64,000 bases of DNA, taken from assembly GCF_000973105.1 (NCBI RefSeq), contig NC_015844.1, forward strand, positions 3,964,501 to 4,028,500, in the 5' to 3' direction. This stretch comes from Zobellia galactanivorans (GTDB taxonomy: Bacteria; Bacteroidota; Bacteroidia; Flavobacteriales; Flavobacteriaceae). The notes under the pieces are model-generated. The model did not search any database. It had not been told where the DNA came from and saw only the letters and a list, made by a program, of their open reading frames with translations. A program made the translations under genes and the position numbers. Shown piece by piece: positions 19,344-49,697 of this stretch (position 1 is the first letter of the stretch; the number at the start of each line of letters is the position of its first letter).

Positions 19344-19359
19344 GAACGAATCAAGAGTA

Positions 19360-22855: not shown

Positions 22856-22871
22856 ACAAAAATAGACAAAC

Positions 22872-34602: not shown

Positions 34603-35238
34603 TTATTTTTCTTTTCTAAAGATCAAATCTTGTTCTTCCATGGCGAGAACAATAAGTTTTATGTAGTCATCTACGGTTTTTTCAATGTTCGTAGGGTCGG
34701 TGACATCGATGCTGCCACGCCAGATCATTGACCGATCTTTGCCTTCACAAATACAGTAGAGGGTAGTTTCTGCGTGATAGACGTCAAATTTTTCGTAGTA
34801 GTCGTCATCGTAATAGATGTCTTGGTTCCTAAGGTAATCATCATTGAACCGCCCTTTATAGTTATCCAATTTTGCGAGGGTACGCAAAAAACTTTCCCGG
34901 TTTTCAGACCCCGTAACTTTGGTAAATAGAATGGCGTCAAAATCTTTGTCCAAGAGGCTTTGTTCAACGTCATCAAGTTCTTTTTCCGTTTTTTTCGAGT
35001 CGGTAAACGATACATCAAAAACATCAAGGCTTCGCATGGCCTCCACATTCCGCTTGTCAAATTCTTTTTGAAGCTTGGTCTCGAAACGCTCCCTTGCGTT
35101 TTCATTTTGGGTCATCCCCACAATGAGCACCTTTTGGGCGTCGAACAAAACAATGTCGGGGTTTTTCCAATTTTCGACCAAGCTGGTCGAAGAACAGCTG
35201 ACAAAAAGGACTAAGAGTAGTATCGATAGTTTTTTCAT
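34603..35238 (-). CDS. Small lipoprotein of unknown function (DUF4136-like region possible)
   Basis: 211 residues if the ATG at 35238 is used (MKKLSILLLVLFVSC gives a clean lipobox); a longer reading from 35289 adds 17 non-signal residues and is rejected. The mature part has an acidic region with DDDYYEKFDVYHAETTLY and WRGSIDVTDP, as in small outer-membrane lipoproteins that gather near stress genes. Upstream lies a TGAC-N4-ATCA palindrome, so it may belong to the Crp/Fnr-type regulon of this block. No function can be assigned. Confidence 0.75.
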   Translation of the reverse strand: MKKLSILLLVLFVSCSSTSLVENWKNPDIVLFDAQKVLIVGMTQNENARERFETKLQKEFDKRNVEAMRSLDVFDVSFTDSKKTEKELDDVEQSLLDKDFDAILFTKVTGSENRESFLRTLAKLDNYKGRFNDDYLRNQDIYYDDDYYEKFDVYHAETTLYCICEGKDRSMIWRGSIDVTDPTNIEKTVDDYIKLIVLAMEEQDLIFRKEK

Positions 35239-35310
35239 AAACGTATTTTTCTTCAATTGTCCAGCGTATGATAAGACTTGATGCCCCATATCCCACTAAA
35301 AGAATCGCAC

Positions 35311-35353
35311 ACAAGGTATAAGTTCTAGGAGTGGATAAAAATGACAATTATCA
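35311..35353 (-). promoter_or_regulatory. Crp/Fnr-type site and -7 box for the lipoprotein gene
   Basis: TGACAATTATCA at 35342-35353 fits TGAY-N4-RTCA; its centre (35347.5) is 33 bp from a -7-like box read on the minus strand as TACCTTGT (35311-35318, matching at TA and TT). This is the weakest of the six promoters. Confidence 0.45.
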
Positions 35354-35387
35354 GTTCTTGAACTAAACTAAGATACATTAAATCGTT

Positions 35388-35819
35388 TTAAGGTTTGCGT
35401 TTTTTCAGTATCGTACCCGCATAGCTGAAGATATCGGTCTTTAAACCACCAAAACTTGTCGTGCAGAAATCGACCTCGAATTGCAGGCGTTCATGCCGTC
35501 TATAGAAAGCTATGTCAAAAGGTGCGGTGTTACATTCCAAGATTCCGCCCAACATGTTTTCGTGTTTGTAGATTTGGTCCTGAATTTTCTTCACGGCGCC
35601 TTCTATATTTTGTAGGCCACTTTTGTGGTTTTGTAGGCGATCGAACAAGATAGGGGTATCGGGTTCAAAAACGTATGAATCCAATAGATGTTCCATAAAG
35701 GCAATTTCATCTTCTAAAAATCTAAGACTCGATTTCCATTGCTGAATTTCCCTAAAGAGTTCCCCTTCTTTTTTCTGCTGTGTCCAGCGCGATGTAGAGG
35801 TTTCGGTTATTGTTGTCAT
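35388..35819 (-). CDS. Hypothetical coiled-coil protein
   Basis: 143 residues from ATG 35819 (MTTITETSTSRW). ATGs at 35828 and 35864 are in frame, but the predicted promoter puts the transcript start near 35831, which favours 35819. The central part (residues about 20-90: GELFREIQQWKSSLRFLEDEIAFMEHLL, HKSGLQNIEGAVKKIQDQIYKHENM) is helical with a coiled-coil heptad look, resembling small cytosolic proteins seen near UspA genes. Function unknown. Confidence 0.7.
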   Translation of the reverse strand: MTTITETSTSRWTQQKKEGELFREIQQWKSSLRFLEDEIAFMEHLLDSYVFEPDTPILFDRLQNHKSGLQNIEGAVKKIQDQIYKHENMLGGILECNTAPFDIAFYRRHERLQFEVDFCTTSFGGLKTDIFSYAGTILKKRKP

Positions 35820-35835
35820 AGTTTCCATATATAAG

Positions 35836-35880
35836 CGAATATAGGTGCGGTGGTACGCAGACACAATGACCTAGGTCATT
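35836..35880 (-). promoter_or_regulatory. Perfect 16-bp Crp/Fnr-type palindrome and -7 box
   Basis: AATGACCTAGGTCATT at 35865-35880 is a perfect palindrome of the TGAC-N4-GTCA kind. Its centre is 33 bp from a box reading TATATTCG on the minus strand (35836-35843, one mismatch to TAnnTTTG). This is the class II geometry expected for an activator centred about 41 bp before the transcript start. Confidence 0.65.
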
Positions 35881-35887
35881 TAGGGGA

Positions 35888-37258
35888 CTATAAGATAATT
35901 TCTTTGGTCTCGTTCAATTTAGGAATGTGTACGCGCCAGTTGTGAACATCGCCGATCTTGACCCGAAAAGCATCGAGTGCCGTAGGTTCGCCATGAATGA
36001 GAAAGACCGTTTCGGGTATATTTTTGATATCTTCCATCCAATGGAGCAGTTCTTTTTGGTCGGCATGAGCCGACAGGCTTTCCAAGTGGCGTATTTTCGA
36101 TTTTACGGGATAGTACTTTCCGAACAGTTTCAATTCGTAGGCCCCTTCTAAAAGCTGCCTTCCCCTAGTGCCCTCTGCCTGATATCCTACAAGCAAGACC
36201 GTTGTTGAGGAATGGCGCATGAGTTGTTTCAGATAGGTGAGTACCCGGCCCCCGGTAACCATGCCGCTACCCGCTATTACGATTTTAGGTCTAGGGTCGT
36301 CAATGGTCTTCCAGGTATCTGCATACGAACTTATAATATTGAAATGCTTGCACATGGACTGGTACTCCTTGCTTGAGAGTTTATGCCATTCGGGAAACCG
36401 TTCAAAAACCGATAATACATTATTGCCCATAGGGCTATCGATAAAAATAGGAATGTTAGGTATTCTGTTTTTCTTGAACAATTGCCACAAAACATACATC
36501 AGCGATTGCAAGCGCTCTACGGCAAAGGACGGAATGATAAGGTTGCCCCTTTGGTTGATGGTTTCGGTGACCAGGTCGACCAAAATTTCCTCAACATCTT
36601 CCTGCGGGTGCAATTTGTTGCCATAGGTGCTTTCAATAAAGAGGTAGTCGGCCCATTTCGGATGTTCGGGAGGGGCCAATAAGATATCGTGTTCGCGTCC
36701 TATATCCCCAGAGAAGACAAACAGCTTTCCAAAAATTTCCAACTCTATAAAGGTTGCCCCTATAATGTGTCCGTTATACTTGAACCTCAACCGTAGGTGT
36801 TCGGAAAGGGAAATCCATTGGTCTTTTTCCCCATAAGAAAAAAGGCCTATGGCTCGTTCCGCTTCCCGGATCGAGTAGAAGGGCTTGGCAGGATGGTGTT
36901 TGCTATAGCCTTCCTTATTGGCGCGTTCGGCTTCTTCCTCGTGAATTTTAGCACTATCCAAAAGAATGATTTCGGTTATGGCCAAGGTAGGAGGGGTCGC
37001 AATTATCTTTCCCTTAAATCCTTCCATAACCAATCTCGGAAGGTAGCCCGTATGGTCTAGGTGTCCGTGTGTCAAGAGTACCACATCTATTTTTGAGGCA
37101 TCTATGGGCAAGGGCGCCCAGTTCAATTGCCGTAATTCCTTCAGGCCTTGGTACATACCACAGTCCACCATAACGTTGAGTTCAGGGGTTTCCAGGTAAA
37201 ATTTCGATCCGGTTACGGTGCCCGAGGCACCCAAAAAGTGAATTTTTACTTTATTCAT
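35888..37258 (-). CDS. Beta-CASP metallo-beta-lactamase-fold RNA hydrolase-like protein
   Basis: 456 residues. Metallo-beta-lactamase motif HGHLDH (64-69) with FSGDIG and SAHADQKEL as later metal-binding segments; the beta-CASP insert is represented by RGNLIIPSFAVERLQSLMY and PIFIDSPMG, then GSGMVTGGR. Proteins of this family (YSH1/CPSF-like) are endo/exoribonucleases or are of unknown function in bacteria. It is last of a minus-strand set running MscS, ATP-cone nuclease, this gene, with 3 bp to the gene before. Confidence 0.85.
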   Translation of the reverse strand: MNKVKIHFLGASGTVTGSKFYLETPELNVMVDCGMYQGLKELRQLNWAPLPIDASKIDVVLLTHGHLDHTGYLPRLVMEGFKGKIIATPPTLAITEIILLDSAKIHEEEAERANKEGYSKHHPAKPFYSIREAERAIGLFSYGEKDQWISLSEHLRLRFKYNGHIIGATFIELEIFGKLFVFSGDIGREHDILLAPPEHPKWADYLFIESTYGNKLHPQEDVEEILVDLVTETINQRGNLIIPSFAVERLQSLMYVLWQLFKKNRIPNIPIFIDSPMGNNVLSVFERFPEWHKLSSKEYQSMCKHFNIISSYADTWKTIDDPRPKIVIAGSGMVTGGRVLTYLKQLMRHSSTTVLLVGYQAEGTRGRQLLEGAYELKLFGKYYPVKSKIRHLESLSAHADQKELLHWMEDIKNIPETVFLIHGEPTALDAFRVKIGDVHNWRVHIPKLNETKEIIL

Positions 37259-37261
37259 AGC

Positions 37262-38107
37262 CTAAGGGTTGCAGAGTTGTTCAATTTCGTTCAGTATTTT
37301 ACTCTTTCTGGTTATCGATATCCCTAAATGGTCTAATAAGAACTTGTTTTTCCATAGTTCGCGACAGAGCACTACATCCCTGCTCAGCAAAAACTGCTTT
37401 TCGCTACTGCTCAATATCGTAGAAACGGTAATCGGGTAAAGGCCCAATCTATCGATACGGTCTTTGAGGCCATTGTTAAAGGGGTAGTCCCAGCTCAATA
37501 AATATAAATCGGCACAGGTTCCATATTTGACGGCATCTAAGGTAAAGCGTGTGTTGGTCACGACCCAACCTGGGCCCAATGTCTTTGTCTCGTTGGTCTT
37601 GGTATTCCAATGGGACTTGACATCATTGTAGCGCGAGTGTATATACAGCGGTATCTTTACATTGCAATTGCGGCCTTCTTCACCGTGAAACTTGCATTCA
37701 ATAACGGTTACGGTATTATTTTTCTCGGCCACCACGTCAATTTCGTGGGTAACGCATAGGCCATCCATAACAATGCCTACCTTGGTCCGGTAGCCGGAAT
37801 AGGTCAAAAGGGCACTTATAAGCCGTTCAAAGGGAAAACCGGTAGGGCCTAATTCGTAAATGGCCTTTTTTAGCTTGTACTTTGAGGCGAAAACCGATTT
37901 CCTTTTTTTTAGTAGGGCAAAGGCCCTATTGTATATCTCATTGGTAGATATGCCTTCATAAAGTTCGTCGCGTACTTGATCTACGATTTTCTCTACCAAT
38001 TCATGATTGGCCCCCGTATGTTTGAGGGAGTTTCTGAGCTTGTCTATGGAAAACTTGGCCTTTGCGCCGGAGGACTTTATAATATCGAATTCCGTTTTGT
38101 TCTTCAT
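37262..38107 (-). CDS. ATP-cone domain fused to PD-(D/E)XK nuclease-like domain
   Basis: 281 residues. Residues 1-90 are an ATP-cone: a nucleotide-sensing module better known in ribonucleotide reductase and NrdR (IIKSSGAKAKFSIDKLRNSL, GISTNEIYNRAFALLKKR, ELGPTGFPFERLI). Residues about 95-150 look like a restriction-endonuclease-type core (LLTYSGYRTKVG, HEIDVVAEKNNTVTVIECKF) with Asp124, Glu137 and Lys139 as catalytic candidates. The combination suggests nuclease activity gated by nucleotide levels. 3 bp before the beta-CASP gene and 26 bp after MscS. Confidence 0.8.
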   Translation of the reverse strand: MKNKTEFDIIKSSGAKAKFSIDKLRNSLKHTGANHELVEKIVDQVRDELYEGISTNEIYNRAFALLKKRKSVFASKYKLKKAIYELGPTGFPFERLISALLTYSGYRTKVGIVMDGLCVTHEIDVVAEKNNTVTVIECKFHGEEGRNCNVKIPLYIHSRYNDVKSHWNTKTNETKTLGPGWVVTNTRFTLDAVKYGTCADLYLLSWDYPFNNGLKDRIDRLGLYPITVSTILSSSEKQFLLSRDVVLCRELWKNKFLLDHLGISITRKSKILNEIEQLCNP

Positions 38108-38133
38108 TGCTTTTTAAAATGGATACGGTTGGT

Positions 38134-39039
38134 TTATGCTTGGGGTTTGACCTGGACGTTTATATCGGGAATCTTCAATAGTTGTAGGGTAGTGGAGGCC
38201 AGTACGACCTTGCCTTCGGTGGCGAATATCGACTGTTGTATACGTTCGAACAGCTGGTGTTTGGTGGCACGCCGAAGCTTATAGTCGGTAATGTACCTAA
38301 GGTTGACCTCTATCCAGTTGTCGGTAATCTTAAGGGCTAGGGTCGGTTCTAGCGTGGCATCTTCTATGTAGTAATGGGCTACCATTTCCTTCCATTTGGC
38401 CAAGGAGTTTTTGGTGTATTCGGAAAGCAACTCCGTGGCATCGGCCAATACAATTTTCTTGGCCAGGGCAATATCCGATTCGTGTGTAATTAGAATATTG
38501 AGTTCGTCCCAGACAAAGGGAAAGTCCATAGAGTAATTCTTTATAGGGCCTTTGAATACAAAGGCATTGCTGATTTTGACGATGCGTCCCGAGTAATTGT
38601 CACTGCTCACCCATTCGCCCAATTCCATTAGGGTGGTGTAAATACTGTCAATGTCAATGACATCGCCTTTTATGCCGTTGATCTCGATTCGATCGCCCGG
38701 TTTGTACACGCGAACGAAAAAGATGTAAAAGGAACCCGCTATGCTCAAAATAAGCTCTTGAAGGGTGAATGTGATTCCTGCCGTAAATAGACCGATAATA
38801 ATGGTATAGTCTTCAATACTTTCTACGGTAAACGAGATCAAGACCAAGAAAAAAATAAAAAAATAGCCCACCAGTTCAACACCTTTCTGGGCCTTGTACC
38901 TTATTGTGGCATCACCGATGCGTTTTTTGAGGAGTTTCCTTAGAAGACCAATGGCGATGATGATAAAGATGATCCATAACAACAGCTTGATCACCTTTGC
39001 GGCAAAAGGGTCTTTGAGAAAATCGAGAAGTGCGTCCAT
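38134..39039 (-). CDS. MscS-family mechanosensitive channel
   Basis: 301 residues. N-terminal transmembrane helices (KLLLWIIFIIIAIGLL, VELVGYFFIFFLVLISF, the pore region FTLQELILSIAGSFYIFFV), then the MscS beta-domain signature VYKPGDRIEINGIKGDVIDIDSIYTTL and the C-terminal helical-beta part. Opens on membrane stretch, protecting against osmotic shock. Encoded in the stress block, 110 bp after the UspA gene. Confidence 0.9.
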   Translation of the reverse strand: MDALLDFLKDPFAAKVIKLLLWIIFIIIAIGLLRKLLKKRIGDATIRYKAQKGVELVGYFFIFFLVLISFTVESIEDYTIIIGLFTAGITFTLQELILSIAGSFYIFFVRVYKPGDRIEINGIKGDVIDIDSIYTTLMELGEWVSSDNYSGRIVKISNAFVFKGPIKNYSMDFPFVWDELNILITHESDIALAKKIVLADATELLSEYTKNSLAKWKEMVAHYYIEDATLEPTLALKITDNWIEVNLRYITDYKLRRATKHQLFERIQQSIFATEGKVVLASTTLQLLKIPDINVQVKPQA

Positions 39040-39149
39040 ATAGGTTTGCTTATAAAGTTAACCATGCGTATTGTACATGTTCTTGTCCCTAAGGTGAAAA
39101 AGGGAGGATTGCCGAAATTTTCTCCAAAAAACCTTCAAATTCTTGTTTT

Positions 39150-39989
39150 TTAACGCAGGGCCAAAATGGGAACGGTGGCGTCATAGCCTATTTCCTTGAC
39201 CAAGGGTCTGGAAAATATACTCGCAAAGAAAAAATGCTTATGGTTGATAAAGGCGATCATATCGCTTTCCCTACTTTCTACAAAGGCTGTAATACCGTTA
39301 GCCACTTTCTTTTCCGAAAGGGTATGGAAACTGTGGTCTATTTGTTCGAATATATGGCTTAACAGGACTTTGTTTTTTTCTTGTTCGGCGGTCAAGATTT
39401 GTTTTTTGCTAACATGGAGTACACGAACGGCCGCCCCGTGCATCTTGGCGATTTCTATGAGGTAGCTTAATTCCTTCCGTTTAAAGTCTGACTTGTAGTC
39501 TGTTGAAAAAACGATTTCCTTGGGTGTTGAAAAGTGTGTGTCTTGGGGTATGGCCAATACCGGACATTCCGTTATCTTTTCCATGGTATTGACCGTGTTA
39601 CTGCCAAAGATGACCCCTTTGGTTAATGAGGCCCCCTTGGTGCCCATGACCACCAAATCGATATCTTTTTCGGAAATCATCTGTTTTAGGGCTTCCGTCA
39701 AAAAATTAAAGGTAGATGTGGTATGGTAGATATGCTTTGGATTGTCATGGTGCAGCGCCAACATATCCAACAATCTCACAAAGTTTTCTTCAGATTTTGC
39801 CTTTGCAGCTTCGTATTCCGCGCTACCGGGTTCTGGCATGATAAGGCTGTCGGTAGTGTAGTTTTCGAGTTTAAAAACGTTTAAAAAGTAGAACTCGCAA
39901 TTCAATTTTGCATAGAGATCAAGGGCGTACCGCACCGCATTGAGGGCATTTTTTGAAAAATCCGTGGGCACCAATATTCTTTTGTACAT
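39150..39989 (-). CDS. Tandem-domain universal stress protein (UspA family)
   Basis: 279 residues, two UspA-like halves. The first half has the RILVPTDFSKNALNAVRYALDL opening and VVMGTKGASLTKGVIFGSNT, containing the G-2x-G-9x-G(S/T) ATP-binding pattern; the second half is degenerate (KEIVFSTDYKSDFKRKELSYLIEIAK). Cytosolic, role in energy or oxygen stress survival. A second paralogue is encoded 64 bp upstream. Confidence 0.92.
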   Translation of the reverse strand: MYKRILVPTDFSKNALNAVRYALDLYAKLNCEFYFLNVFKLENYTTDSLIMPEPGSAEYEAAKAKSEENFVRLLDMLALHHDNPKHIYHTTSTFNFLTEALKQMISEKDIDLVVMGTKGASLTKGVIFGSNTVNTMEKITECPVLAIPQDTHFSTPKEIVFSTDYKSDFKRKELSYLIEIAKMHGAAVRVLHVSKKQILTAEQEKNKVLLSHIFEQIDHSFHTLSEKKVANGITAFVESRESDMIAFINHKHFFFASIFSRPLVKEIGYDATVPILALR

Positions 39990-40053
39990 GCTGTTCTTTT
40001 TTCAAGGGTTAATAAATCTAATTGATTTTTAGTGGTTTACCTATTTTTGGCGG

Positions 40054-40905
40054 TCAGTCTTTATAAGGAAGGATAAGAAAGGGAACATCGGTATACTTAC
40101 TTATATCCTTTACCACAGGTTCGTGTATAAGGCGCTCAAAAAAACTGTGTTTATAATAGACCATGGCGAACATATCAATGCCTTTGGTCTTCAAGAAATC
40201 GTCAATGGCCACGGCCTTGTCGGAAAAGGCCCGTACCCAGTGGAAACTGTGGTCAATGTGTTTAAGGCATAGTTCGAGCATTTCTTTATGTGATTGTTGT
40301 TCTTTACTTAGCTCTTCTTCTTCATTGATGTGCATGACCTTTATTTTGGCGTCGAAGAGCTCGGTAATGAACATGAGGGGGGTAATCGTTTTTTTGGTAC
40401 ATCCCCTTTTATAGTCAGTTACAAAGGCAAGGTCTTTAGGTTTTGAGAAGTCCCTTTGCTTGGGAACGGTCAAAATAGGGCATTGGGTTATGGTGTCGGC
40501 CACTTGTATGGTGTTGCTTCCCAAGAAAATTTCTTTAGCCCCGGTATGGCCCTTGCTGCCCATGACGATGAGATCTATGTCGTATGGATTGAGCATCTGG
40601 TGTATGGTCTTTACCAAATTTCCTTTTTTCGATATGGTCTCGAACCGGTGCAAGGGGTTTTCATTGTCTAGGTTGATACGGTGTTTAAGGGCCGTAAGAT
40701 TATCGTTGGATGCAACCTTTAATTGTTCCAGCAGTTTCTTTCCTACCAAGAATTCTGGCTTGCCCCCCTCTAAAGGGGTAAGTTGATCGTATACGTTGAG
40801 AAGGTAAAAGGTACATTCCTTTGACGCCAACAAGCGGGTAGCGTAGAAAAGCGCGCTGTAGGCATAGTTTGAAAAGTCGGTAGGCACCAGTATATTTTTT
40901 ATCAT
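40054..40905 (-). CDS. Tandem-domain universal stress protein (UspA family)
   Basis: 283 residues, the same architecture as the neighbouring paralogue: NILVPTDFSNYAYSALFYATRL at the N-terminus and VMGSKGHTGAKEIFLGSNT in the first domain; the second domain lacks the full nucleotide motif. Its promoter region, shared with the thioredoxin gene, carries a TGAT-N4-GTCA palindrome. First gene of the leftward stress set. Confidence 0.92.
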   Translation of the reverse strand: MIKNILVPTDFSNYAYSALFYATRLLASKECTFYLLNVYDQLTPLEGGKPEFLVGKKLLEQLKVASNDNLTALKHRINLDNENPLHRFETISKKGNLVKTIHQMLNPYDIDLIVMGSKGHTGAKEIFLGSNTIQVADTITQCPILTVPKQRDFSKPKDLAFVTDYKRGCTKKTITPLMFITELFDAKIKVMHINEEEELSKEQQSHKEMLELCLKHIDHSFHWVRAFSDKAVAIDDFLKTKGIDMFAMVYYKHSFFERLIHEPVVKDISKYTDVPFLILPYKD

Positions 40906-40953
40906 TATCTTAAATTTAGAATTAATGGAATCTCGGTAGCTTTGATTACTGTA

Positions 40954-41027
40954 TAAAACTAATCGAGAAGAATTTATAAAACCATGATATTGGTCAGTTT
41001 CGCAGAGATCTATTTTCAGTAATTTTA
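40954..41027. promoter_or_regulatory. Shared Crp/Fnr-type site with two symmetric -7 boxes
   Basis: TGATATTGGTCA at 40985-40996 has its centre at 40990.5. Exactly 33 bp to the left lies TAGTTTTA read on the minus strand (40954-40961), and exactly 33 bp to the right lies TAATTTTA on the plus strand (41020-41027). One palindrome thus serves both the uspA gene and the thioredoxin gene with the same geometry. Confidence 0.7.
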
Positions 41028-41045
41028 ACCATCAAAATTTCAGGA

Positions 41046-41345
41046 ATGAAAAGTAGTTTCAGTAAAATCGTAGAATCGGATACACCTGTACTGGTAGATT
41101 TTTATGCCGACTGGTGTGGGCCTTGTAAAATGTTGGCCCCTATTTTAAAACAAGTCAAAGACGAACTAGGGGATGCCATTAAGATCGTAAAGATCGATGT
41201 GGATAAAAATCAGCCCTTGGCGAATACCTATAACGTTCGTGGCGTACCCACCATGCTATTGTTCAAAAACGGAAAACAGGTCTGGCGACAGTCGGGGGTA
41301 CTACAGAAAAACGATATTGTACAGATCGTGAAGTCGAACTCTTAA
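41046..41345 (+). CDS. Thioredoxin
   Basis: 99 residues, thioredoxin length, with the redox motif WCGPC (Trp23, Cys24, Cys27), the cis-proline segment GVPTMLLFKNG and no signal peptide, so cytosolic. Reduces protein disulfides. Divergent from the uspA gene and sharing its palindrome. Confidence 0.93.
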   Translation: MKSSFSKIVESDTPVLVDFYADWCGPCKMLAPILKQVKDELGDAIKIVKIDVDKNQPLANTYNVRGVPTMLLFKNGKQVWRQSGVLQKNDIVQIVKSNS

Positions 41346-41453
41346 TGTCGGCGGTGTTCTCGTTATAGGGAATGGAGAGGGTGTCCCGATGGGCTTCCCG
41401 AACCTTTGACCGATTCCGAAAAGCACGAAGCCTTTTATCTAAAAATCAACCGA

Positions 41454-42452
41454 ATGAAAAAGTACTGTATTTATTTACTAGTTGTTCTCTTCTTTGCAAG
41501 TTGTAAGGACGGTCAAAAAACAAAAACGGAACCTGTTGATGATAATGGGCAAACCCAAACCGTTGAGGCCAAGGAACCACATCCGGGAAAACTCATTATG
41601 GAGAGGGAGTGCTATATGTGCCATGATCCTAAAGCGACCATGGCGAATCGGATTGCACCGCCTATGGAAGCGATCAAGAGACATTATATCGATTCGACCG
41701 TGAGCAAAGAGGAGTTTACGGAAGCCTTGATCAAATGGGTGAACGATCCGGAAACGGAAACCAAAATTCCCGCCGCCCATAAAAGGTTCGGTCCCATGCC
41801 CTATCTGCCCAACCGCGATGAGGCCGTGGCACAGATTGCCGATTATATCTATGATAACGAATTGGAACGGCCCGACGGCTTTGATGACTATTTCAAAATG
41901 GCACATAAAAAAGGTATGGGGATGGAAGAATGCCATTGTTTTGATTATCCCGACCCCGATAAAGTGTATGCCTCTATAGGGATGTCATATGCAAAAGAAG
42001 CCCAAATGCAGTTAGGGAAGAGCTTAACGAAGGCCATTCAGGAAAAGGGACCCGTAGGGGCCATAGGTTTCTGCAACCTAGAGGCCATAAAAATTACGGA
42101 TAGTGTGTCTTTGATGAAAAATGCGGTCATTCAAAGGGTTTCCGATAGGCCCAGAAATCCCAAAAACAAGGCCAGTGCCCAAGAATTAGAATATATAGCC
42201 TCTTTCAAGGAAGCCTTGGCGTCGGGAGAGGAAGTATCCCCCGTGGTACATACTGAAAACGATGAAGTCTCCTTTTACGCACCAATAGTAACCAATGCCC
42301 TTTGTCTACAATGTCACGGCAAACCCAATGAGCAAGTACTGCCCGAGACTATGGCGGCACTGAAGAAATTGTACCCGAACGATAAGGCGGTCGGCTATGA
42401 TGTTGACCAAGTACGTGGTATGTGGAGCATTGCGTTCTATGGTGATAAATAA
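41454..42452 (+). CDS. Di-heme c-type cytochrome lipoprotein with DUF3365-like domain
   Basis: 332 residues from ATG 41454 (MKKYCIYLLVVLFFASC lipobox); an earlier in-frame start at 41406 adds 16 residues before the signal and is rejected. Two heme c sites: CYMCH (53-57) in an N-terminal single-heme domain with a possible Met ligand, and CLQCH (284-288) in the C-terminal DUF3365 (Tll0287-like) domain. Periplasmic electron carrier or redox sensor. It ends before a palindromic element and a strong terminator. Confidence 0.9.
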   Translation: MKKYCIYLLVVLFFASCKDGQKTKTEPVDDNGQTQTVEAKEPHPGKLIMERECYMCHDPKATMANRIAPPMEAIKRHYIDSTVSKEEFTEALIKWVNDPETETKIPAAHKRFGPMPYLPNRDEAVAQIADYIYDNELERPDGFDDYFKMAHKKGMGMEECHCFDYPDPDKVYASIGMSYAKEAQMQLGKSLTKAIQEKGPVGAIGFCNLEAIKITDSVSLMKNAVIQRVSDRPRNPKNKASAQELEYIASFKEALASGEEVSPVVHTENDEVSFYAPIVTNALCLQCHGKPNEQVLPETMAALKKLYPNDKAVGYDVDQVRGMWSIAFYGDK

Positions 42453-42485
42453 GCTTCAAAAATGGAGGGGGAAAATAGATAAAGT

Positions 42486-42580
42486 AAACTACCTCGGGAT
42501 AAGCCCGCGAGGCATTAAAAGAATACGCCTTGATTTCGAGGCAAGCCTCGGAGTATTTAATCTCGATTATCGAGTAAAAT
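42486..42580 (+). repeat. Palindrome-rich intergenic element
   Basis: Three inverted repeats in 95 bp: CCTCG...CGAGG (42492-42512), CGAGGC-AA-GCCTCG (42537-42550) and CTCGAT-T-ATCGAG (42562-42574). The layout resembles REP- or MITE-like dispersed elements; only one copy is in this window, so repetition in the genome cannot be seen from here. Confidence 0.45.
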
Positions 42581-42619
42581 AGGTGGTTCCGCATCAAATA
42601 TTTTAGATGGTTGAAAAAG

Positions 42620-42650
42620 GGGTGTTGTTATTGGCAACACCCTTTTTTTT
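42620..42650 (+). terminator. Intrinsic terminator of the cytochrome transcript
   Basis: GGGTGTTG (42620-42627) pairs with CAACACCC (42635-42642) over a 7-base loop and is followed by eight T (42643-42650). This is the clearest terminator in the window. Confidence 0.9.
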
Positions 42651-42686
42651 GGTAAACTTTTTCGAATTTCCGATTTAGGTGTACCT

Positions 42687-42718
42687 TTTGAACAAATTCG
42701 GAAAGTCCGATACCTTTG
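42687..42718 (+). promoter_or_regulatory. Bacteroidota-type promoter of upp
   Basis: TTTG (42687-42690) and TACCTTTG (42711-42718) are separated by 20 bp, matching the -33/-7 consensus of Bacteroidota. The upp start follows 39 bp later. No TGAY-N4-RTCA palindrome is present. Confidence 0.7.
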
Positions 42719-42757
42719 TAATAAAAACATATTCATAACTCAAATCAAACGATAATT

Positions 42758-43411
42758 ATGACGATTCATAACCTTGGCGAAAACAATTCGCTGATGAACA
42801 AATTCATTGCAGAAATCAGGGATGTTGATATCCAAAAGGATGCTATGCGGTTCAGGCGGAATATCGAGCGTATCGGGGAAGTGCTAGGTTATGAAATGAG
42901 CAAATCGTTTCGGTACGAAAGCAGTCAGGTACATACACCATTAGGAAGCAAGGAAATGAGCCTACCCACGGACCATGTGGTTTTGTGTTCCGTTTTACGG
43001 GCCGGACTTCCCTTGCACCAGGGGTTGTTAAATTATTTTGACGGGGCGGAAAATGCCTTTATTTCGGCATATCGTCACCATAGGGGAGACGAAGATGCCT
43101 TTGAGGTCATTGTCAACTATTTCGCGGCACCTTCCTTAGAAGGCAAGATATTGGTGCTGACAGACCCGATGTTGGCTACCGGGAAAACATTGGAGAATGT
43201 CTTGAAAGTATTAAAAAACCACGGCACGCCGGCACAGATACACATTGTTTCGGTCATAGGGGCGCAAGAGGGCGTGGCCCACGTTCAAAAGGTATTTCCT
43301 GAAAACACCCATCTATGGATTTCTGCCATTGACCCCGAGCTGAATGCCAGGGGCTATATTATTCCCGGCATAGGGGATGCAGGTGACCTGGCCTATGGCG
43401 AAAAACTTTAG
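42758..43411 (+). CDS. upp: Uracil phosphoribosyltransferase
   Basis: 217 residues. Motifs SVLRAGLPLHQGLL and the PRPP-binding loop VLTDPMLATGKTL, then ARGYIIPGIGDAGDLAYGE at the C-terminus, are diagnostic of UPRT. Salvages uracil to UMP with PRPP. Monocistronic by its own promoter and preceded by a terminator; convergent with the ATPase gene. Confidence 0.96.
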   Translation: MTIHNLGENNSLMNKFIAEIRDVDIQKDAMRFRRNIERIGEVLGYEMSKSFRYESSQVHTPLGSKEMSLPTDHVVLCSVLRAGLPLHQGLLNYFDGAENAFISAYRHHRGDEDAFEVIVNYFAAPSLEGKILVLTDPMLATGKTLENVLKVLKNHGTPAQIHIVSVIGAQEGVAHVQKVFPENTHLWISAIDPELNARGYIIPGIGDAGDLAYGEKL

Positions 43412-43448
43412 GCTTGTTCCCTAGGGTATTTTTCCTTGTACCCACATA

Positions 43449-45956
43449 CTAGTTTTCCTTAGCTCCTAGGCGTTTGCCCCATTTTACCACCTCATACCAG
43501 AGTACCGAAATACTACCGGCCAATAGGCAAACGAACAATTGGTCTACATTTAAGGTGCTGAATTCAAAGAAGGCGGTCAAGGGGGGCACGAAGAGTAGGC
43601 TAGTGGTCAAGGCGATCGTTATGCCGATAATCAGGGCAACTAGATTGTTCTTGTACCTCAAGGTCGTCCATAGCGAGTAATAGAAAGATCGGTTCACCAA
43701 GGTCAAAAAGATATTGGCCACGATCAGCACCATAAAGACCATGGTACGGGTAGTGTCCTCATCAAGGCTTTGCGCTACGGCATATTGGTATACCGATAGT
43801 GAAGCCAAGGTAATGATTAGACCTTGTACGATGCTTGTAATTAATTCGTTGAAATTGAAAAATGTGGTCGTAAACGGCCGGGGTCTCTTGTTCATGGTAT
43901 TTTTTTCCATGGGCTCGTTTTCGTAAATAATGGAGCAGGTGGGCCCCATGATGAGTTCCAACAAAATAACATGCGATGGTGAAAATATAGAAGGGAAGCT
44001 CCACCGCAAGGCCAAGGGGATAAATACCGTTAATATGATGGGAATATGGATGGAGATAATATACTGGATCGCTTTTTTGAGGTTGGTATAGATCTTTCGT
44101 CCCATGGCAATGGCATCTACCATTTTAGAGAGGTCGTCGTCGACCAAAATCAATGAGGCCGCCTGCTTGGCGATTTCCGTGCCCTTTTTTCCCATGGCAA
44201 TGCCGATGTGTGCCGCCTTGAGCGCCGGGCCGTCGTTGACCCCGTCACCTGTCATGGCCACGACTTCGTTGTTCACTTTTAGGGCATTGATAATTCTAAG
44301 CTTGGCTTCGGGAAACATTCGGCTGAACACTTGGGTGTCCGTTACCCTCTCCTGTAATTCCGCATCGGTCAACTGCATCAATTCGTCACCCGACATACAT
44401 TTATCGTAACCAATAAAATCGATTTCCTTGGCAATGGCTACGGCCGTAGCGGCATTGTCTCCCGTTACCAGTTTTACGTTTATTCCGGCCGTATTGAAAT
44501 CTTTGAGCACCTGTGGGATGTTTTCCTTAGGCGGATCGTAAAAGGCCACCAGTCCCTTAAATTCGAATTTAAAGTCCTGTTGGTATTGAGGAAAATCGTT
44601 TCCTTCGAATAGGGCCTGCCCTACGCCCAATAAACGAAAGCCTTGTTTGCCCAGTTCCTCTATGGTAGAATAGATGGATCGCTTTTCCTCGGCGCTGAGG
44701 TGCGAGCCTTGTATCAGGGCTTCCGGTGCGCCCTTGGCGGCAATGATCCGCTGGCCGGCCCGATTTTCGAACACATGCGTCATCATGGGGGGCTTTCCGC
44801 CTAGCGGATATTCGTGGATCATATGGTAATTGGGCCTTTCGTCCACATCCGTATGCTTTCCATAGGCTTGGTGCAAAGCGGTTTCCATGGGGTCAAAAGG
44901 TATGGGTTCACTGGCCCACATGGCTATGGTAATCAGCTCTTTTTCTTCGTTATTTAAGCTTTCCTCGAGAGAGACTACCCTTGCTGCCTTCATGGAAAAC
45001 AATCGGGCCAGGCTCATTTTGTTCTGGGTGAGGGTCCCGGTTTTATCGGTGCATATAACGGTAGCGCTACCCAAGGTCTCCACCGTTTTCATCTGTTTTA
45101 CCACAACGCCCAATTTCATCAGTCGCCAGGCTCCCAAGGCCATAAAGGTGGTAAAGGCCACGGGAATCTCTTCAGGAAGAATACTCATGGCAAGTGTCAG
45201 GGCCTTTAGTAAACTATCGAGTACATCACGCGAATTGAAGTAATTAATGCCCCATACCAAAAGAAACGTAAGGCCGCCCCAAAGAGCCATCTGCTTTACA
45301 AAATTTGCGATTTGCAGTTCTAAGGGCGTTTTTTCGTCTTCAATGGTGTTTAGACTGTTGCCGATTTTTCCCAGTTGGGTGTGGTTGCCTATAGCGGTAA
45401 CGACGGCAATGGCCAGACCACTGGCTACGGTGGTGCCGCTAAAAATAGTGTTATCGGTAGAAGAAACATCCTTAAAGACCGAAAGCGATTCTCCGGTGAG
45501 TATGGATTCGTCTACGGAGAAGTCGTTGGAATGAACGATGGTGCCATCCGCAGGAACCATTGTGCCTTCCTCTACGATCAGGCTGTCGCCAACGACCAGC
45601 TCCTCACTGGGAATCTCCACGACCTTGCCGTTACGGATGACCTGGCAGTTGGGTTCGGTCAGGTTCTTTAGTTTTTCCAAGGCCTTCCGGCTTCTCGAAT
45701 CTTGATAAAGCGAAATGGAGCCCACCAATACAATGGCGGCGACCATAAAGATACCGTCGCCAAAATTACCGCTGATAAAATAAATGGAGGAGGCCACCAA
45801 GAGCAAAAGGATCATAGGTTCTTTTAAGATACCTTTTAGGGCATCTAAAAAACCGTTTGTTTCCTTATAAGCAAATGAATTGGCCCCGTTGGTTTTTCTT
45901 GATCGTTCTACCTGCGCGTCGGTCAGTCCATCAATACCCAAGTTTTCAACGGCCAT
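43449..45956 (-). CDS. P-type cation ATPase (P2-like)
   Basis: 835 residues. Actuator motif LTGES (153-157), phosphorylation site CTDKTGTLTQ with Asp304, hinge MTGDGVNDGPALKAAHIG, and about ten membrane helices including SILPEEIPVAF in M4 where Ca2+ pumps usually have PEGLP. Lacks N-terminal heavy-metal domains, so Ca2+/Mn2+ or another divalent cation is likely, but the ion is unproven. A TGAT-N4-GTCA palindrome stands upstream with a perfect -7 box. Confidence 0.92.
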   Translation of the reverse strand: MAVENLGIDGLTDAQVERSRKTNGANSFAYKETNGFLDALKGILKEPMILLLLVASSIYFISGNFGDGIFMVAAIVLVGSISLYQDSRSRKALEKLKNLTEPNCQVIRNGKVVEIPSEELVVGDSLIVEEGTMVPADGTIVHSNDFSVDESILTGESLSVFKDVSSTDNTIFSGTTVASGLAIAVVTAIGNHTQLGKIGNSLNTIEDEKTPLELQIANFVKQMALWGGLTFLLVWGINYFNSRDVLDSLLKALTLAMSILPEEIPVAFTTFMALGAWRLMKLGVVVKQMKTVETLGSATVICTDKTGTLTQNKMSLARLFSMKAARVVSLEESLNNEEKELITIAMWASEPIPFDPMETALHQAYGKHTDVDERPNYHMIHEYPLGGKPPMMTHVFENRAGQRIIAAKGAPEALIQGSHLSAEEKRSIYSTIEELGKQGFRLLGVGQALFEGNDFPQYQQDFKFEFKGLVAFYDPPKENIPQVLKDFNTAGINVKLVTGDNAATAVAIAKEIDFIGYDKCMSGDELMQLTDAELQERVTDTQVFSRMFPEAKLRIINALKVNNEVVAMTGDGVNDGPALKAAHIGIAMGKKGTEIAKQAASLILVDDDLSKMVDAIAMGRKIYTNLKKAIQYIISIHIPIILTVFIPLALRWSFPSIFSPSHVILLELIMGPTCSIIYENEPMEKNTMNKRPRPFTTTFFNFNELITSIVQGLIITLASLSVYQYAVAQSLDEDTTRTMVFMVLIVANIFLTLVNRSFYYSLWTTLRYKNNLVALIIGITIALTTSLLFVPPLTAFFEFSTLNVDQLFVCLLAGSISVLWYEVVKWGKRLGAKEN

Positions 45957-45970
45957 ATACGTTCTTTTTC

Positions 45971-46013
45971 CAAAAATAAGGGAAATAAAATATAGCGCGA
46001 TTGATCTATGTCA
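45971..46013 (-). promoter_or_regulatory. Crp/Fnr-type site and -7 box of the ATPase gene
   Basis: TGATCTATGTCA at 46002-46013, centre 46007.5, and exactly 33 bp away a perfect TAnnTTTG box on the minus strand (TATTTTTG, 45971-45978). The transcript would start about 10 nt before the ATG at 45956. The rightward efflux gene has no such box at 33 bp. Confidence 0.7.
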
Positions 46014-46163
46014 TTTTATTGGAGTAAGTTAAGGAGCAAAGGGCAGGTCACCTTCCGATGGCGATAGTAGTGCTTTTTTTAACGAAATTGTCAATAGTAT
46101 GACTTATCTCATGTTCTTGGAACGGAATTTCGTTTTAATTTGGATATCTGCAATTTATAAACT

Positions 46164-47246
46164 ATGCGTTATATATTTATATGGGTCTTGGTATTGGTAC
46201 TGCAATCATGCGGTGATGATGAGGAAAAAATCCTTCCCCAAAAAGCGGAACTCACCGAATCGGTCTATGCCTCGGCTACGGTACAGCCCGATAGTCTGTA
46301 TAAGGTGTATTCGGCCGTTGGCGGAATTTTAGACCGCAATTTGGTAGAGGAGGGCGATCGTGTCAAAAAGGGAAGCCCTTTGCTGCAGATTATCAATAAC
46401 ACCCCCAAACTGAATACGGAAAATGCCAAGCTTTCGTTACGCTTGGCCCAAGAAAACTATAACGGAAGCGCGGCCGTGCTCAAGGGCTTGGAAGACGAAA
46501 TAAAAGCGGCCACCCTATCGTTTCATAACGATTCCATCAATTTCTATAGACAGAAACGCCTGTGGTCACAAAACATAGGGTCTAAGGTTGAATTTGATAA
46601 CCGTAAATTGGCCTATGAGCTTTCCCGAAACAATCTTAACCTCCTGAAAAGTAAGTACGAGCGTACCAAGAACGAACTGTTGACCCAAGTACGCCAAGCA
46701 CGGAACAACTATGAGTCGGCACAGATCAATACAAAGGACTTTACGGTAACGAGCAAGATCAATGGCAAGGTCTATGAACTGATGAAAGAACCCGGTGAAA
46801 TCGTAAGCACGATGGAGCCCATAGCCGCAGTAGGGAGCGATTCGGATTTTATCATCAAAATGCTGGTAGACGAAGTGGATATCGTAAAACTCAGTTTGGG
46901 CCAAAAGACCTTGGTTACCTTAGATGCATACCCTTCGGAGGTCTTCGTTGCCACGGTAGACAAAATCTATCCGCGTAAGGATGAGCGCTCACAGACCTTT
47001 ACGGTAGAGGCCAGTTTTGACGACCCGCCAAAAATCCTGTATCCGGGGTTGGCAGGTGAGGGCAATATTATCATCGCCCAAAAGAAAGAGGCATTGACCA
47101 TTCCCAAGACCTATCTTATAAATGGCAATAGCGTACGTACCGCTAAGGGTATGGTAGAGGTGGTTACGGGATTGCAAAATTTAGATCGGGTAGAGATTGT
47201 TGAGGGAATCGGCGAAAATACCGAGCTGTTAAAACCGGAACAATGA
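46164..47246 (+). CDS. Membrane-fusion (HlyD-like) efflux protein
   Basis: 360 residues, lipoprotein-like N-terminus (YIFIWVLVLVLQSC). Two lipoyl-like halves (GGILDRNLVEEGDRVKKGSPLLQI and KINGKVYELMKEPGEIVSTMEPIAAVG) flank a coiled coil (about 80-185), followed by beta-barrel (IIKMLVDEVDIVKLSLGQKTLV). It would link an inner-membrane ABC system to the envelope. Overlaps the permease gene by 4 bp. Confidence 0.9.
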   Translation: MRYIFIWVLVLVLQSCGDDEEKILPQKAELTESVYASATVQPDSLYKVYSAVGGILDRNLVEEGDRVKKGSPLLQIINNTPKLNTENAKLSLRLAQENYNGSAAVLKGLEDEIKAATLSFHNDSINFYRQKRLWSQNIGSKVEFDNRKLAYELSRNNLNLLKSKYERTKNELLTQVRQARNNYESAQINTKDFTVTSKINGKVYELMKEPGEIVSTMEPIAAVGSDSDFIIKMLVDEVDIVKLSLGQKTLVTLDAYPSEVFVATVDKIYPRKDERSQTFTVEASFDDPPKILYPGLAGEGNIIIAQKKEALTIPKTYLINGNSVRTAKGMVEVVTGLQNLDRVEIVEGIGENTELLKPEQ

Positions 47247-48505
47247 CCAATTGGAGCGTTATATTGAACATTGCCAAAACACATTTGGTAACCAAGGTAA
47301 AGTCTACGGCTACCGCAGCCTTGGGGGTTACGTTCGGTATTGGCGCCTATATTACCCTGATCAGCTTTATGACCGGTCTGAATGTTATGTTAGATGGACT
47401 CATCTTGAACCAAACGCCGCATATTCATTTGTACAACGAGATCGAACCGAGCGAAACCCAGCCCATATCGCTTTATGACGAATTTCAAAATTCGGTAAAC
47501 ATTGTGCATTCGATTAAACCTAGACAAAGTCAGAAGAAGATTCATAACGCCCTGCCCATTTTAAGCTATCTCAAAAAGGATAAGGAGGTAAAAGGGGCCA
47601 CGCCCCAGCTCAGGGCCCAGATTTTTTATTTGTCGGGTTCCATAGAATTGAGCGGTAACCTAGTGGGTATCGATATTATGGAGGAGACACGACTCTCCAA
47701 CATGGGCGATTACATCGTTCAAGGAAGCCCTCAAGCCCTTAAGAATACCGAAAATGGCATATTGCTAGGTTCGGGCCTTGCCGAAAAAATGTCCTTGTCG
47801 GTGGGGGATAGGGTACAGGTAAGTACCGTATCGGGCGATATTTTTCCCTTGAAAATAGTAGGTTTCTACCAAAGCGGGGTGGCCGATGTAGACAACATTC
47901 AGAGTTTTGCCAACCTTAAGACCGTACAGCGGATTCTAGGCGAGGCACAGAACTATATTACCGATATCAATATTAGGCTTTTTAATATTGAAGGGGCGCC
48001 GGCCATGGCAAAACGGCTGCAAAAACAGTTTGACATAAAGGCTACGGATATCAATGAGGCCAATGCCCAGTTCGAGACCGGATCCAACATTAGAAACCTG
48101 ATTACCTATGCCGTATCCATTACTTTGTTGATCGTGGCGGGCTTCGGAATTTACAACATCTTGAACATGCTCATCTACGAAAAAATGAAGGATATCGCCA
48201 TTCTGAAAGCCACGGGTTTTTCGGGGCGCGATGTACAGCTTATTTTTATGAGCCAGGCCATGATCATCGGGGTGGTAGGAGGTGTTCTCGGACTCCTCCT
48301 TGGCTTCGGCCTATCGCATATCATAGACAATGTAGCTTTTGAGACGGCCGCCCTGCCCACCATAAAGACCTATCCTATAAGTTTTGATATCAGCTACTAT
48401 GTAGTGGGACTCACTTTTGCACTGCTTTCTACTTTTATTGCGGGTTGGCTGCCTTCCGTAAAGGCCAAACACATAGATCCGGTGCGCATTATTCGTGGAA
48501 CTTAA
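47243..48505 (+). CDS. FtsX-like ABC transporter permease (MacB/LolC type)
   Basis: 420 residues. N-terminal helix after TATAALGVTFGIGAYITLISFM, a periplasmic MacB-type domain, then three helices at the C-terminus (ITYAVSITLLIVAGFGIYNILNML, MIIGVVGGVLGLLLGFGLS, YYVVGLTFALLSTFIAGWLPSV) and the FtsX ending HIDPVRIIRG. Exports or extracts lipoprotein or small molecules; cargo unknown. The stop is 10 bp before the ATPase start. Confidence 0.9.
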   Translation: MTNWSVILNIAKTHLVTKVKSTATAALGVTFGIGAYITLISFMTGLNVMLDGLILNQTPHIHLYNEIEPSETQPISLYDEFQNSVNIVHSIKPRQSQKKIHNALPILSYLKKDKEVKGATPQLRAQIFYLSGSIELSGNLVGIDIMEETRLSNMGDYIVQGSPQALKNTENGILLGSGLAEKMSLSVGDRVQVSTVSGDIFPLKIVGFYQSGVADVDNIQSFANLKTVQRILGEAQNYITDINIRLFNIEGAPAMAKRLQKQFDIKATDINEANAQFETGSNIRNLITYAVSITLLIVAGFGIYNILNMLIYEKMKDIAILKATGFSGRDVQLIFMSQAMIIGVVGGVLGLLLGFGLSHIIDNVAFETAALPTIKTYPISFDISYYVVGLTFALLSTFIAGWLPSVKAKHIDPVRIIRGT

Positions 48506-48515
48506 AAGCGGAAAA

Positions 48516-49190
48516 ATGGAATATGTTCTAGAAACGAAAAACATCAATAAGCATTTTTATAAGCCAAAGGACTTTCATGTACTTAAGGATATCTCTTTTG
48601 GGGTGAAAGTGGGCGAGTTTGCTTCCATTATGGGAAAATCCGGCTCGGGAAAATCTACCTTACTCTATATTTTATCGACCATGGATACCGACTATACAGG
48701 TGAACTCTACCTCAATCATGAACTGGTCACGGGAAGGTCGCATCAAGAACTGTCGCGTATTAGAAACAAGCATATAGGCTTTGTCTTTCAGTTCCATTAC
48801 TTATTGTCGGAATTCAGTGTTTTGGAAAATGTCATGCTTCCGGCAAAGAAACTGAACGAGAAATCACATGCCGATATAAAACGCGATGCTATGCAAAAGC
48901 TAGAAATGCTTCATATCGATTATCTGGCCCAACAACGCGCTTCGCGAATATCGGGGGGTGAAAAGCAACGGGTAGCCATAGCCAGGGCCTTGATCAATAA
49001 TCCCATCATTCTTATGGGGGATGAACCTACCGGAAATCTCGACAGTCAGAACTCGGATAACGTTTTTAATATATTTAAAAGGCTGAAAGAGGAAGAGGGA
49101 CTTTCCCTTTTGGTGGTGACCCATGACGAGGATTTTGCCCAACGAACGGACCGTATTATCCAGATGGAAGACGGACGTATTATATCTTGA
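48516..49190 (+). CDS. ABC transporter ATP-binding protein (LolD/MacB type)
   Basis: 224 residues from ATG 48516; GTG 48495 inside the previous gene is in frame but less likely. Walker A GKSGSGKST, signature ISGGEKQR, Walker B LMGDEPTGNLDS and H-loop THDED are all present. Energises the FtsX-like permease; the three genes (adaptor, permease, ATPase) form one unit. Confidence 0.95.
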   Translation: MEYVLETKNINKHFYKPKDFHVLKDISFGVKVGEFASIMGKSGSGKSTLLYILSTMDTDYTGELYLNHELVTGRSHQELSRIRNKHIGFVFQFHYLLSEFSVLENVMLPAKKLNEKSHADIKRDAMQKLEMLHIDYLAQQRASRISGGEKQRVAIARALINNPIILMGDEPTGNLDSQNSDNVFNIFKRLKEEEGLSLLVVTHDEDFAQRTDRIIQMEDGRIIS

Positions 49191-49199
49191 ACCGCTCAC

Positions 49200-49242
49200 T
49201 GACCCAAGTCATGATGGGGATCGACCGAAGCCTTTACTTTTG
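49200..49242 (+). promoter_or_regulatory. Crp/Fnr-type site and -7 box for the SpoIIAA-like gene
   Basis: TGACCCAAGTCA (49200-49211, centre 49205.5) with a perfect TAnnTTTG box (TACTTTTG, 49235-49242) exactly 33 bp downstream. A leader of about 50 nt would precede ATG 49297. Confidence 0.7.
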
Positions 49243-49296: not shown

Positions 49297-49683
49297 ATGA
49301 TTGAAAAATTAAAAACTTATGAGGGCAACTCCCTAGCTTTAGAGGTTATAGACGGATTTACCGAAACCGATGAAAAATTGGCCCTAAAGTTCTTTCAAGA
49401 AAAAATTGACGAAGGATACGACCATGTGAATGTACTGGTAAAGCTTGACGAGTTGAAAATTAGCCATAGTGAGGTAAAAGCACTTGTGGAAGATGCCAAA
49501 TGGACCCTAGGGAATTACGGGCAAATAGGGAATATAGCCGTTGTGGCCAATTCGAACATCTTAAAGGCCTTAGTGTCCCTTGATGCTCTTTTCTTTGAAA
49601 GACTGCGAAAAGGTTACGAAGAGCGTTATTTTGATATTTCACAATTGGATGAAGCGCTCCAGTTTATAGCACCTAATCCATAA
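49297..49683 (+). CDS. SpoIIAA/STAS-like protein
   Basis: 128 residues, cytosolic. The pattern NSLALEVIDGFTETDEKLALKFF and GNIAVVANSNILKALVSLDALFF is like the SpoIIAA-like (PF11964) STAS/SEC14-related fold. Such small proteins occur with stress genes in Bacteroidota; the ligand is unknown. 14 bp before the L,D-transpeptidase gene. Confidence 0.75.
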   Translation: MIEKLKTYEGNSLALEVIDGFTETDEKLALKFFQEKIDEGYDHVNVLVKLDELKISHSEVKALVEDAKWTLGNYGQIGNIAVVANSNILKALVSLDALFFERLRKGYEERYFDISQLDEALQFIAPNP

Positions 49684-49697
49684 GACGACCCTTGCCC

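Follow-up and report, generated by a model that had tools for sequence, protein, structure and literature searches.

Activators of the Crp/Fnr superfamily occupy -41.5 at class II promoters, and FNR and ANR act from this position on low-oxygen genes. The FixL-FixJ-FixK cascade is another known oxygen-signaling system. The σA promoters of the Bacteroidota differ from those of model bacteria, and to our knowledge the geometry of activators at such promoters has received little attention. Here we analyze a 64-kb stretch of the Zobellia galactanivorans chromosome (64,000 nucleotides, bases 3964501-4028500 of the 5,521,712-base one-contig genome; referred to as the window, with its positions counted from the first base) that contains five palindromes of the form TGAY-N4-RTCA and six associated promoter boxes. 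We believe that the palindromes are probably Crp/Fnr-type operators in the class II position of σA promoters, belonging to one low-oxygen regulon in which two activators share the operator. A low-oxygen regulon of the Crp/Fnr type is a known kind of system; its unusual parts here are the -41.5 position combined with a Bacteroidota box, mirror-image promoters, the cysteine set of one candidate activator, and the fusion of a receiver to a Crp-type activator in the other.

The closest described systems each share part of this arrangement. As at the class II promoters of FNR and ANR, there would be an activator with a Crp/Fnr fold, an operator of two half-sites and four central bases centered at -41.5, and low-oxygen targets. 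Unlike at those promoters, the half-site is TGAY without a fixed outer T and the sigma factor box is TAnnTTTG; the FNR box is quoted as TTGAT-N4-ATCAA in a passage of PMC1274295. As in the FixL-FixJ-FixK cascade, there is a FixL-like PAS kinase, a receiver, a Crp/Fnr-type activator, and a cbb3 oxidase among the predicted targets. Unlike in that cascade, the receiver and the activator are fused, so that a separate FixJ step would be absent. Excerpts of two papers name FixL, FixJ, and fixK in Burkholderia dolosa (PMC9104464) and hFixL, FxkR, and FixK (PMC7888657). According to passages of PMC11841059, NmpRSTU of Myxococcus xanthus has a heme-requiring sensor kinase and targets that include UspA, cbb3 oxidase, and HemN, whereas its output is an NtrC-like, σ54-dependent activator and not a Crp-type protein. 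The lxa locus of Burkholderia cenocepacia, which contains six UspA and other stress genes and is induced at low oxygen (PMC9104464, in part), is from another phylum, and the likeness is one of gene content. HcpR, DNR, and NnrR are Crp/Fnr-type regulators of nitrogen-oxide genes, and one HcpR motif, TTGAC-N4-GTCAA, is close to the operator here; as presented in excerpts of PMC1274295, these regulators are without the FNR-type cysteine motif and have other core targets. Among the matches listed in a search of open-licence literature (titles and abstract openings), we found no description of this regulon or of a receiver-Crp fusion in flavobacteria.

Six site-box pairs in the window have an identical spacing. 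The initial annotation had proposed palindromes at 35342, 35867, 40985, 46002, and 49200, each with a box 33 bp away and the one at 40985 with a box in both directions, and we recovered all of them. The gap between palindrome and box is 23 bp, or 33 bp from center to center, in all six pairs. Two boxes match TAnnTTTG exactly: TATTTTTG (45971..45978, minus strand), next to the operator TGACATAGATCA (46002..46013, minus), and TACTTTTG (49235..49242, plus), next to the operator TGACCCAAGTCA (49200..49211, plus). Three boxes have one mismatch. These are TATATTCG (35836..35843, minus), which accompanies the operator TGACCTAGGTCA (35867..35878, minus), and the two that flank the operator TGATATTGGTCA (40985..40996), which is shared by two divergent promoters, with TAGTTTTA (40954..40961, minus) toward uspA and TAATTTTA (41020..41027, plus) toward a thioredoxin gene. 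The weakest of the six, TACCTTGT (35311..35318, minus), lies next to the operator TGATAATTGTCA of a lipoprotein-like gene (35342..35353, minus) and has two mismatches to TAnnTTTG, yet matches the related box TAnnTTGY.

These pairs are not expected by chance. The window contains eight TGAY-N4-RTCA sites (2.8 expected), and eight or more were found in 1 of 100 shuffles. The other three sites (6092, 27313, and 34775) are inside open reading frames (ORFs) and have no box with two or fewer mismatches at the 33-bp spacing. At a gap of 23, five promoters had a box with no more than one mismatch, compared to a mean of 0.055 and a maximum of 1 in 400 first-order Markov shuffles, and no other gap from 5 to 45 yielded more than one such promoter in the window. 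A generic σ70 scan of the region from 34.5 to 50.8 kb revealed no excess (28 matches; 31.4 expected).

The spacing places the operators at the class II position if the box is where it has been mapped in another flavobacterium. In the promoter map of Flavobacterium psychrophilum, as given in part of PMC9723704, TAnnTTTG is found at -12 to -5 and TAnnTTGY is a second box at the same position. A box from -12 to -5 has its center at -8.5, and an operator centered 33 bp upstream would therefore be at -41.5. By this analogy, and with 33 bp in six of six pairs, the class II geometry suggested in the initial annotation is supported. For 37 of 47 gap-23 matches in the genome, an ORF starts 1-90 nt past the predicted transcription start (simple ORF caller with a 50-aa cut; 47 of the 53 matches described below were covered, leaving out those at 360807, 522850, 553814, 567548, 2161772, and 3202144). 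The box of the lipoprotein-like gene is of the TAnnTTGY type both here and in a second genome of the genus (G133), and another sigma factor may pair with the same activator there.

The 23-bp gap is preferred throughout the genome and in relatives. When the gap was left free from 8 to 38 bp (31 gaps), 18 of the 30 exact palindrome-box pairs in the genome fell on a gap of 23 (Poisson probability ~7e-24, with the 12 pairs on the remaining 30 gaps as background), and the reversed-pattern control gave 1+1. When one mismatch was tolerated, there were 53 matches at this gap (control, 1+6). The proposal thus withstood the comparison with palindromes elsewhere, since most exact pairs are on one of 31 gaps. 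In six relatives (G133, G079, G087, G109, G138, and G143), one search gave 107 exact pairs at gap 23, and a separate one that allowed every gap from 8 to 38 gave 202. Of 196 genomes from the order, 115 contained an exact gap-23 pair. Without correction for kinship or base composition, the density per Mb was 1.58 in the 88 genomes with a clear homologue of the Fnr-type regulator described below, 0.88 in 8 with a weak match, and 0.35 in 100 with none; with the same limit, genomes of 1.2-3 Mb had 1.19 sites per Mb with the homologue (23 genomes) and 0.36 without it (63 genomes). The canonical FNR box, TTGAT-N4-ATCAA, was considered as the operator and rejected: it occurs 18 times genome-wide (control, 1), yet its outer T is rare among the regulon sites. 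Of 40 promoters taken from the 53 matches, 3 have T immediately before TGAY and 32 have T immediately after RTCA.

The window sites are conserved. All five palindromes and all six boxes are retained in G133 (palindromes, 11-12 of 12 bases; boxes, 7-8 of 8; linkers, 17-23 of 23). The operators at 35867, 46002, and 49200 are unchanged there (with 17 of 23 linker bases kept at 49200), that at 35342 has 11 of 12 bases, and the counterpart of its box is TACCTTGC. Because G133 is a close relative, this is modest evidence. The 12-mer between uspA and the thioredoxin gene recurs between both genes in G109, in which UspA is 46% identical; it has an exact box toward uspA and none within one mismatch toward thioredoxin. 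In G205, the identical 12-mer is upstream of a uspA gene, with one-mismatch boxes on both sides. A footprint of uspA homologues began with 30 loci, nine of which were dropped as no start codon was located. An operator and a box with at most one mismatch were found at 13 of the remaining 21 loci and a two-mismatch box at one (L173); seven had no palindrome within 500 bp (L155, L157, L163, L167, L172, L176, and L181). Despite these seven misses, the comparison of orthologous promoters, including those of fnr homologues (below), did not refute the initial annotation.

Some palindromes appear to serve promoters on both sides. Boxes with at most one mismatch are present at 33 bp in both directions at 40985, at 2647344/2647375 (between fnr and metal-ATPase genes), and at 4533627/4533658. 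We surveyed the best 80 of 476 fnr-homologue loci and found a palindrome within 300 bp upstream in 71. The forward box at these 71 palindromes was exact in 48 and had one mismatch in 4; the box on the opposite side had one mismatch in 66 and two in 5, and 52 palindromes had at most one mismatch on both sides. The gene on the far side was read in this genome alone. The box facing away from fnr is CAnnTTTG at 55 of the 71 palindromes, a conserved departure from TAnnTTTG.

The predicted targets point to a response to low oxygen. First genes downstream of sites in the genome include those for a fused ccoN/ccoO cbb3 oxidase, a heavy-metal P-type ATPase, HemN, a Sec-dependent NosZ, NapA, an alternate F1Fo ATPase beta subunit, Hsp20, UspA proteins, and the Fnr-like regulator itself. 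In the window, the gene families named in the initial annotation (uspA, thioredoxin, P-type ATPase, and SpoIIAA-like) were confirmed; the lipoprotein was recognized by eye, the coiled-coil label is that of the annotation, and neither of these two proteins has a Pfam family. The identities of the targets support the suggestion that the regulon is oxygen- or redox-responsive. In oxygen-limited F. psychrophilum, cbb3 oxidase is strongly up and heme-synthesis enzymes are also up, according to passages of PMC9723704; the main text of that paper contains neither FNR nor CRP as a term. Two exact sites (3058542 and 3145506) and a third with a single mismatch (3058112) are followed by ORFs of 42, 37, and 42 aa, respectively, which are shorter than the 50-aa cut and start 21-24 nt past the box. 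Each ORF has one hydrophobic stretch (by eye), and the peptides are letter-identical in G133 though linker bases vary. They are possible low-oxygen microproteins with a single membrane span. An Rfam search for small RNAs behind the microprotein-type sites (L229 and L230) had no match. The site at 3816712 precedes a 220-aa gene (ribB-like by eye) and a gene for a small, 191-aa Crp-type regulator, a possible cascade.

Two proteins of the genome are candidates for the activator. There are 17 matches to the cNMP domain, 15 of them above the family cut-off. A 229-aa Fnr-like protein and a 355-aa fusion, in which Response_reg, cNMP_binding, and HTH_Crp_2 are in a single protein, have in common the segment GTATE(S/T)xIR and near-identical recognition helices, and both match PF00027 and PF13545 above cut-off, in keeping with the cNMP-type beta-roll and Crp helix-turn-helix of the superfamily. 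The gene for the Fnr-like protein adjoins the cbb3 locus and has the operator in its own promoter; the closest named relatives of the protein are from Zobellia (89-90% identity), and its model matches 2gau and Aliivibrio fischeri FNR.

The Fnr-like protein has a cysteine set that differs from that of FNR. FNR proper has an oxygen-labile [4Fe-4S] cluster, with cluster cysteines at 20, 23, 29, and 122 (Escherichia coli numbering). The Fnr-like protein also has a CxxC and a later cysteine, and in an alignment to A. fischeri FNR its Cys5, Cys8, and Cys107 fall on cysteines. Unlike in FNR, the third N-terminal cysteine is replaced by Asn or Ser, and there is an additional conserved cysteine, Cys54, that aligns with alanine and is predicted to be in a beta strand. 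The match to the NCBIfam Fnr model is below cut-off (104.5 versus 228 bits). All 81 close sequences have Cys5, Cys8, Cys54, and Cys107; Cys194 varies. Among 20 divergent homologues, 16 keep all four, one keeps three (from G072, resembling the 252-aa paralogue discussed below), and three keep none. Because the four cysteines are kept jointly and lost jointly, this pattern suggests that they form a metal center. The three homologues with none of the four are from another family (G182, G019, and G125; L205, L206, and L207) and retain the recognition helix; their genomes have 0, 10, and 10 gap-23 sites, respectively. The sensor input may have changed in these proteins with the operator kept.

The gene for the fusion is linked to a PAS histidine kinase gene and to the usp cluster. 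Of 16 loci, 15 have it directly 3' of the kinase gene, the exception being G230 (the count excludes at least nine genomes with a fusion-sized frame: G133, G150, G103, G031, G177, G158, G110, G018, and G072). An operator and a box with at most one mismatch accompany the next gene downstream of the fusion in 12 of 16 loci; the misses are this genome, G138, G102, and G095. In G109, matches to the lipoprotein, coiled-coil, metallo-hydrolase, ATP-cone, UspA, thioredoxin, HlyD, and ABC genes form a cluster around the PAS kinase and receiver-Crp genes. That stretch has no match to the MscS channel, P-type ATPase, or SpoIIAA-like gene. Parts of the window cluster also adjoin the receiver-Crp gene in G205, G212, G230, and G207. 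These are putative orthologues identified as best BLAST matches, in genomes chosen by their UspA matches.

The kinase has a PAS domain similar in sequence to those of heme-based sensors. FixL has a histidine kinase core and a heme PAS domain with an axial histidine, and the histidine and arginine of the FixL segment have known roles. The kinase has histidine kinase domains, and a histidine of its first PAS domain aligns with the FixL-segment histidine. This domain has 15 PDB matches: a multi-sensor kinase (10jx) followed by 7 FixL, 6 DosP-type, and 1 other; for the kinase of G128, the best match is FixL (7e-29). Judged by sequence, the FixL-like PAS thus resembles the heme PAS domains of FixL and DosP.

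The base at the fifth half-site position tends to vary with the fusion. The comparison covered 28 of 30 genomes of the family, without G018 and G158, which have the fusion. C was found at this base in 51 of 328 halves from 14 genomes with the fusion versus 5 of 196 from 14 without it (per-genome Mann-Whitney p 0.001). The next base inward, a control for composition, gave 17 of 328 versus 6 of 196. Within the Z. galactanivorans genome, C was present in 18 of 36 halves from stress clusters and in 1 of 14 from respiratory loci (p 0.008, 25 sites). Because its gene adjoins matches to the window cluster in five relatives, we favor the fusion, without certainty, as most likely driving the window promoters. 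A two-component system of the FixL type, with the receiver-Crp protein as its output, may regulate the window cluster instead of or besides Fnr.

Several observations weigh against the explanation that we prefer. One exact site (2265620) is inside a SusC-like gene and the site at 3939195 overlaps a 140-aa ORF; 9 of the best 80 fnr-homologue loci have no palindrome within 300 bp upstream, and at 19 of the 71 palindromes the forward box is worse than one mismatch. The fusion gene of Z. galactanivorans lies ~0.5 Mb away from the window, adjacency being found solely in the relatives chosen by uspA matches. The best PDB match of the kinase PAS domain is not FixL, and the arginine of the FixL segment aligns with Gly. 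The stress and respiratory arms were assigned by hand, and the split between operators is not general, because G128, G163, and G079 have the fusion and no C-type half-sites. Gap-23 sites also persist in genomes without the fusion. That persistence, the operator in the promoter of the Fnr-like gene, and the similarity of the recognition helices would fit control of all sites, including those in the window, by the Fnr-like protein alone, with other targets for the fusion. We consider this rather improbable: the fusion gene lies in or beside the usp cluster in five relatives, operators are found downstream of it in most loci, and three genomes in which the best match is the fusion (G039, G102, and G167) have exact-site counts of 6, 3, and 7. 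A third paralogue of the Crp/Fnr type, 252 aa long and encoded near 1.93 Mb, has cysteines in its N-terminus, a Crp-type helix, and weak relatedness to the Fnr-like protein (32% identity), and it is very unlikely to be the regulator: its helix, GTTEEQVIRVF, differs from GTATE(S/T)xIR, and a genome scan allowing one mismatch found no gap-23 site near 1.93 Mb.

The signal could be nitric oxide, redox state, or energy status in a regulon that is otherwise real. We think this unlikely, although nosZ and nap are among the targets, the genes for thioredoxin and UspA proteins count as general stress genes, and the FixL arginine is not conserved. The cbb3 oxidase and the oxygen-independent HemN are classical low-oxygen genes, the induction in F. 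psychrophilum described above was under oxygen limitation, and the kinase PAS domain resembles those that sense oxygen through heme. A chance origin of the spacing in AT-rich promoters was rejected on the shuffles and the distribution of gaps, and we give it virtually no credence: the boxes are degenerate (of the six, three have one mismatch and one has two), but the number in the window is far above the 0.055 expected, the reversed pattern yields almost nothing in the genome, and the six relatives have the same preferred gap.

We therefore return to two activators that share one operator. Crp/Fnr-superfamily proteins would bind at -41.5 of TAnnTTTG promoters recognized by σA, and two activators probably share the site. 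The Fnr-like protein would most likely run a respiratory arm (cbb3, metal ATPase, hemN, nosZ, and nap) and the fusion a stress arm that includes the window (UspA, thioredoxin, P-type ATPase, metallo-hydrolase, SpoIIAA-like protein, and Hsp20). When oxygen drops, the FixL-like kinase would phosphorylate the fusion, a dimer of which would bind the operator and recruit RNA polymerase; one dimer at 40985 would serve both outward-facing promoters. A fuller version is possible, though we think it less likely than not: two Crp-type activators would converge on one operator, an Fe-S Fnr whose third ligand is displaced from the N-terminal loop to a beta-roll strand (Cys5, Cys8, Cys54, and Cys107) and a phosphorylation-gated receiver-Crp protein under a heme-PAS kinase, with the inner half-site base setting which one dominates, single dimers serving mirror-image promoters, and the unannotated 37-42 aa membrane peptides included.

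The genes next to the window sites are as follows. On the minus strand, a likely operon of five genes, inferred from gene order (35888..40905), would be transcribed from the operator at 40985 and encodes two UspA proteins (40054-40905, the first gene, and 39150-39989), an MscS-type channel (38134-39039), an ATP-cone protein (37262-38107), and a beta-CASP/RMMBL metallo-hydrolase (35888-37258). On the other side and on the plus strand, a pair of genes (41046..42452) encodes thioredoxin (41046-41345) and, 3' of it, a Tll0287-like protein that weakly matches cytochrome c (41406-42452). The cation P-type ATPase (PF00122, PF00689, and PF00690) is at 43449..45956 on the minus strand, and the pair at 49297..50672 on the plus strand encodes the SpoIIAA-like protein (49297-49683) followed by an L,D-transpeptidase YkuD (49692-50672). 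The lipoprotein-like gene is at 34603..35289 (minus), with an alternative start at ~35238. The so-called coiled-coil protein (35388..35828, minus) is more likely to start at 35828 than at the listed GTG, 35864, because the latter is upstream of the predicted transcription start; relatives of this protein (35388-35864 as listed) adjoin other regulon sites of the genome as well as sites in G109, G205, G212, and G230. The window also contains polysaccharide-type genes (5481-24377 and 57950-59359), among them a SusC/SusD pair, sulfatases, an alpha-L-fucosidase, and DUF4861 and DUF2961 proteins.

One operator and one spacing would amount to a rule for predicting low-oxygen genes in flavobacterial genomes, those for tiny membrane peptides among them, and class II activation with a TAnnTTTG box becomes directly testable. 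The regulon also suggests an Fnr whose cysteine set is altered and a FixL-to-FixK pathway that is shortened. With nitrous-oxide reductase among the predicted targets, the rule would bear on the timing of N2O consumption by marine flavobacteria.

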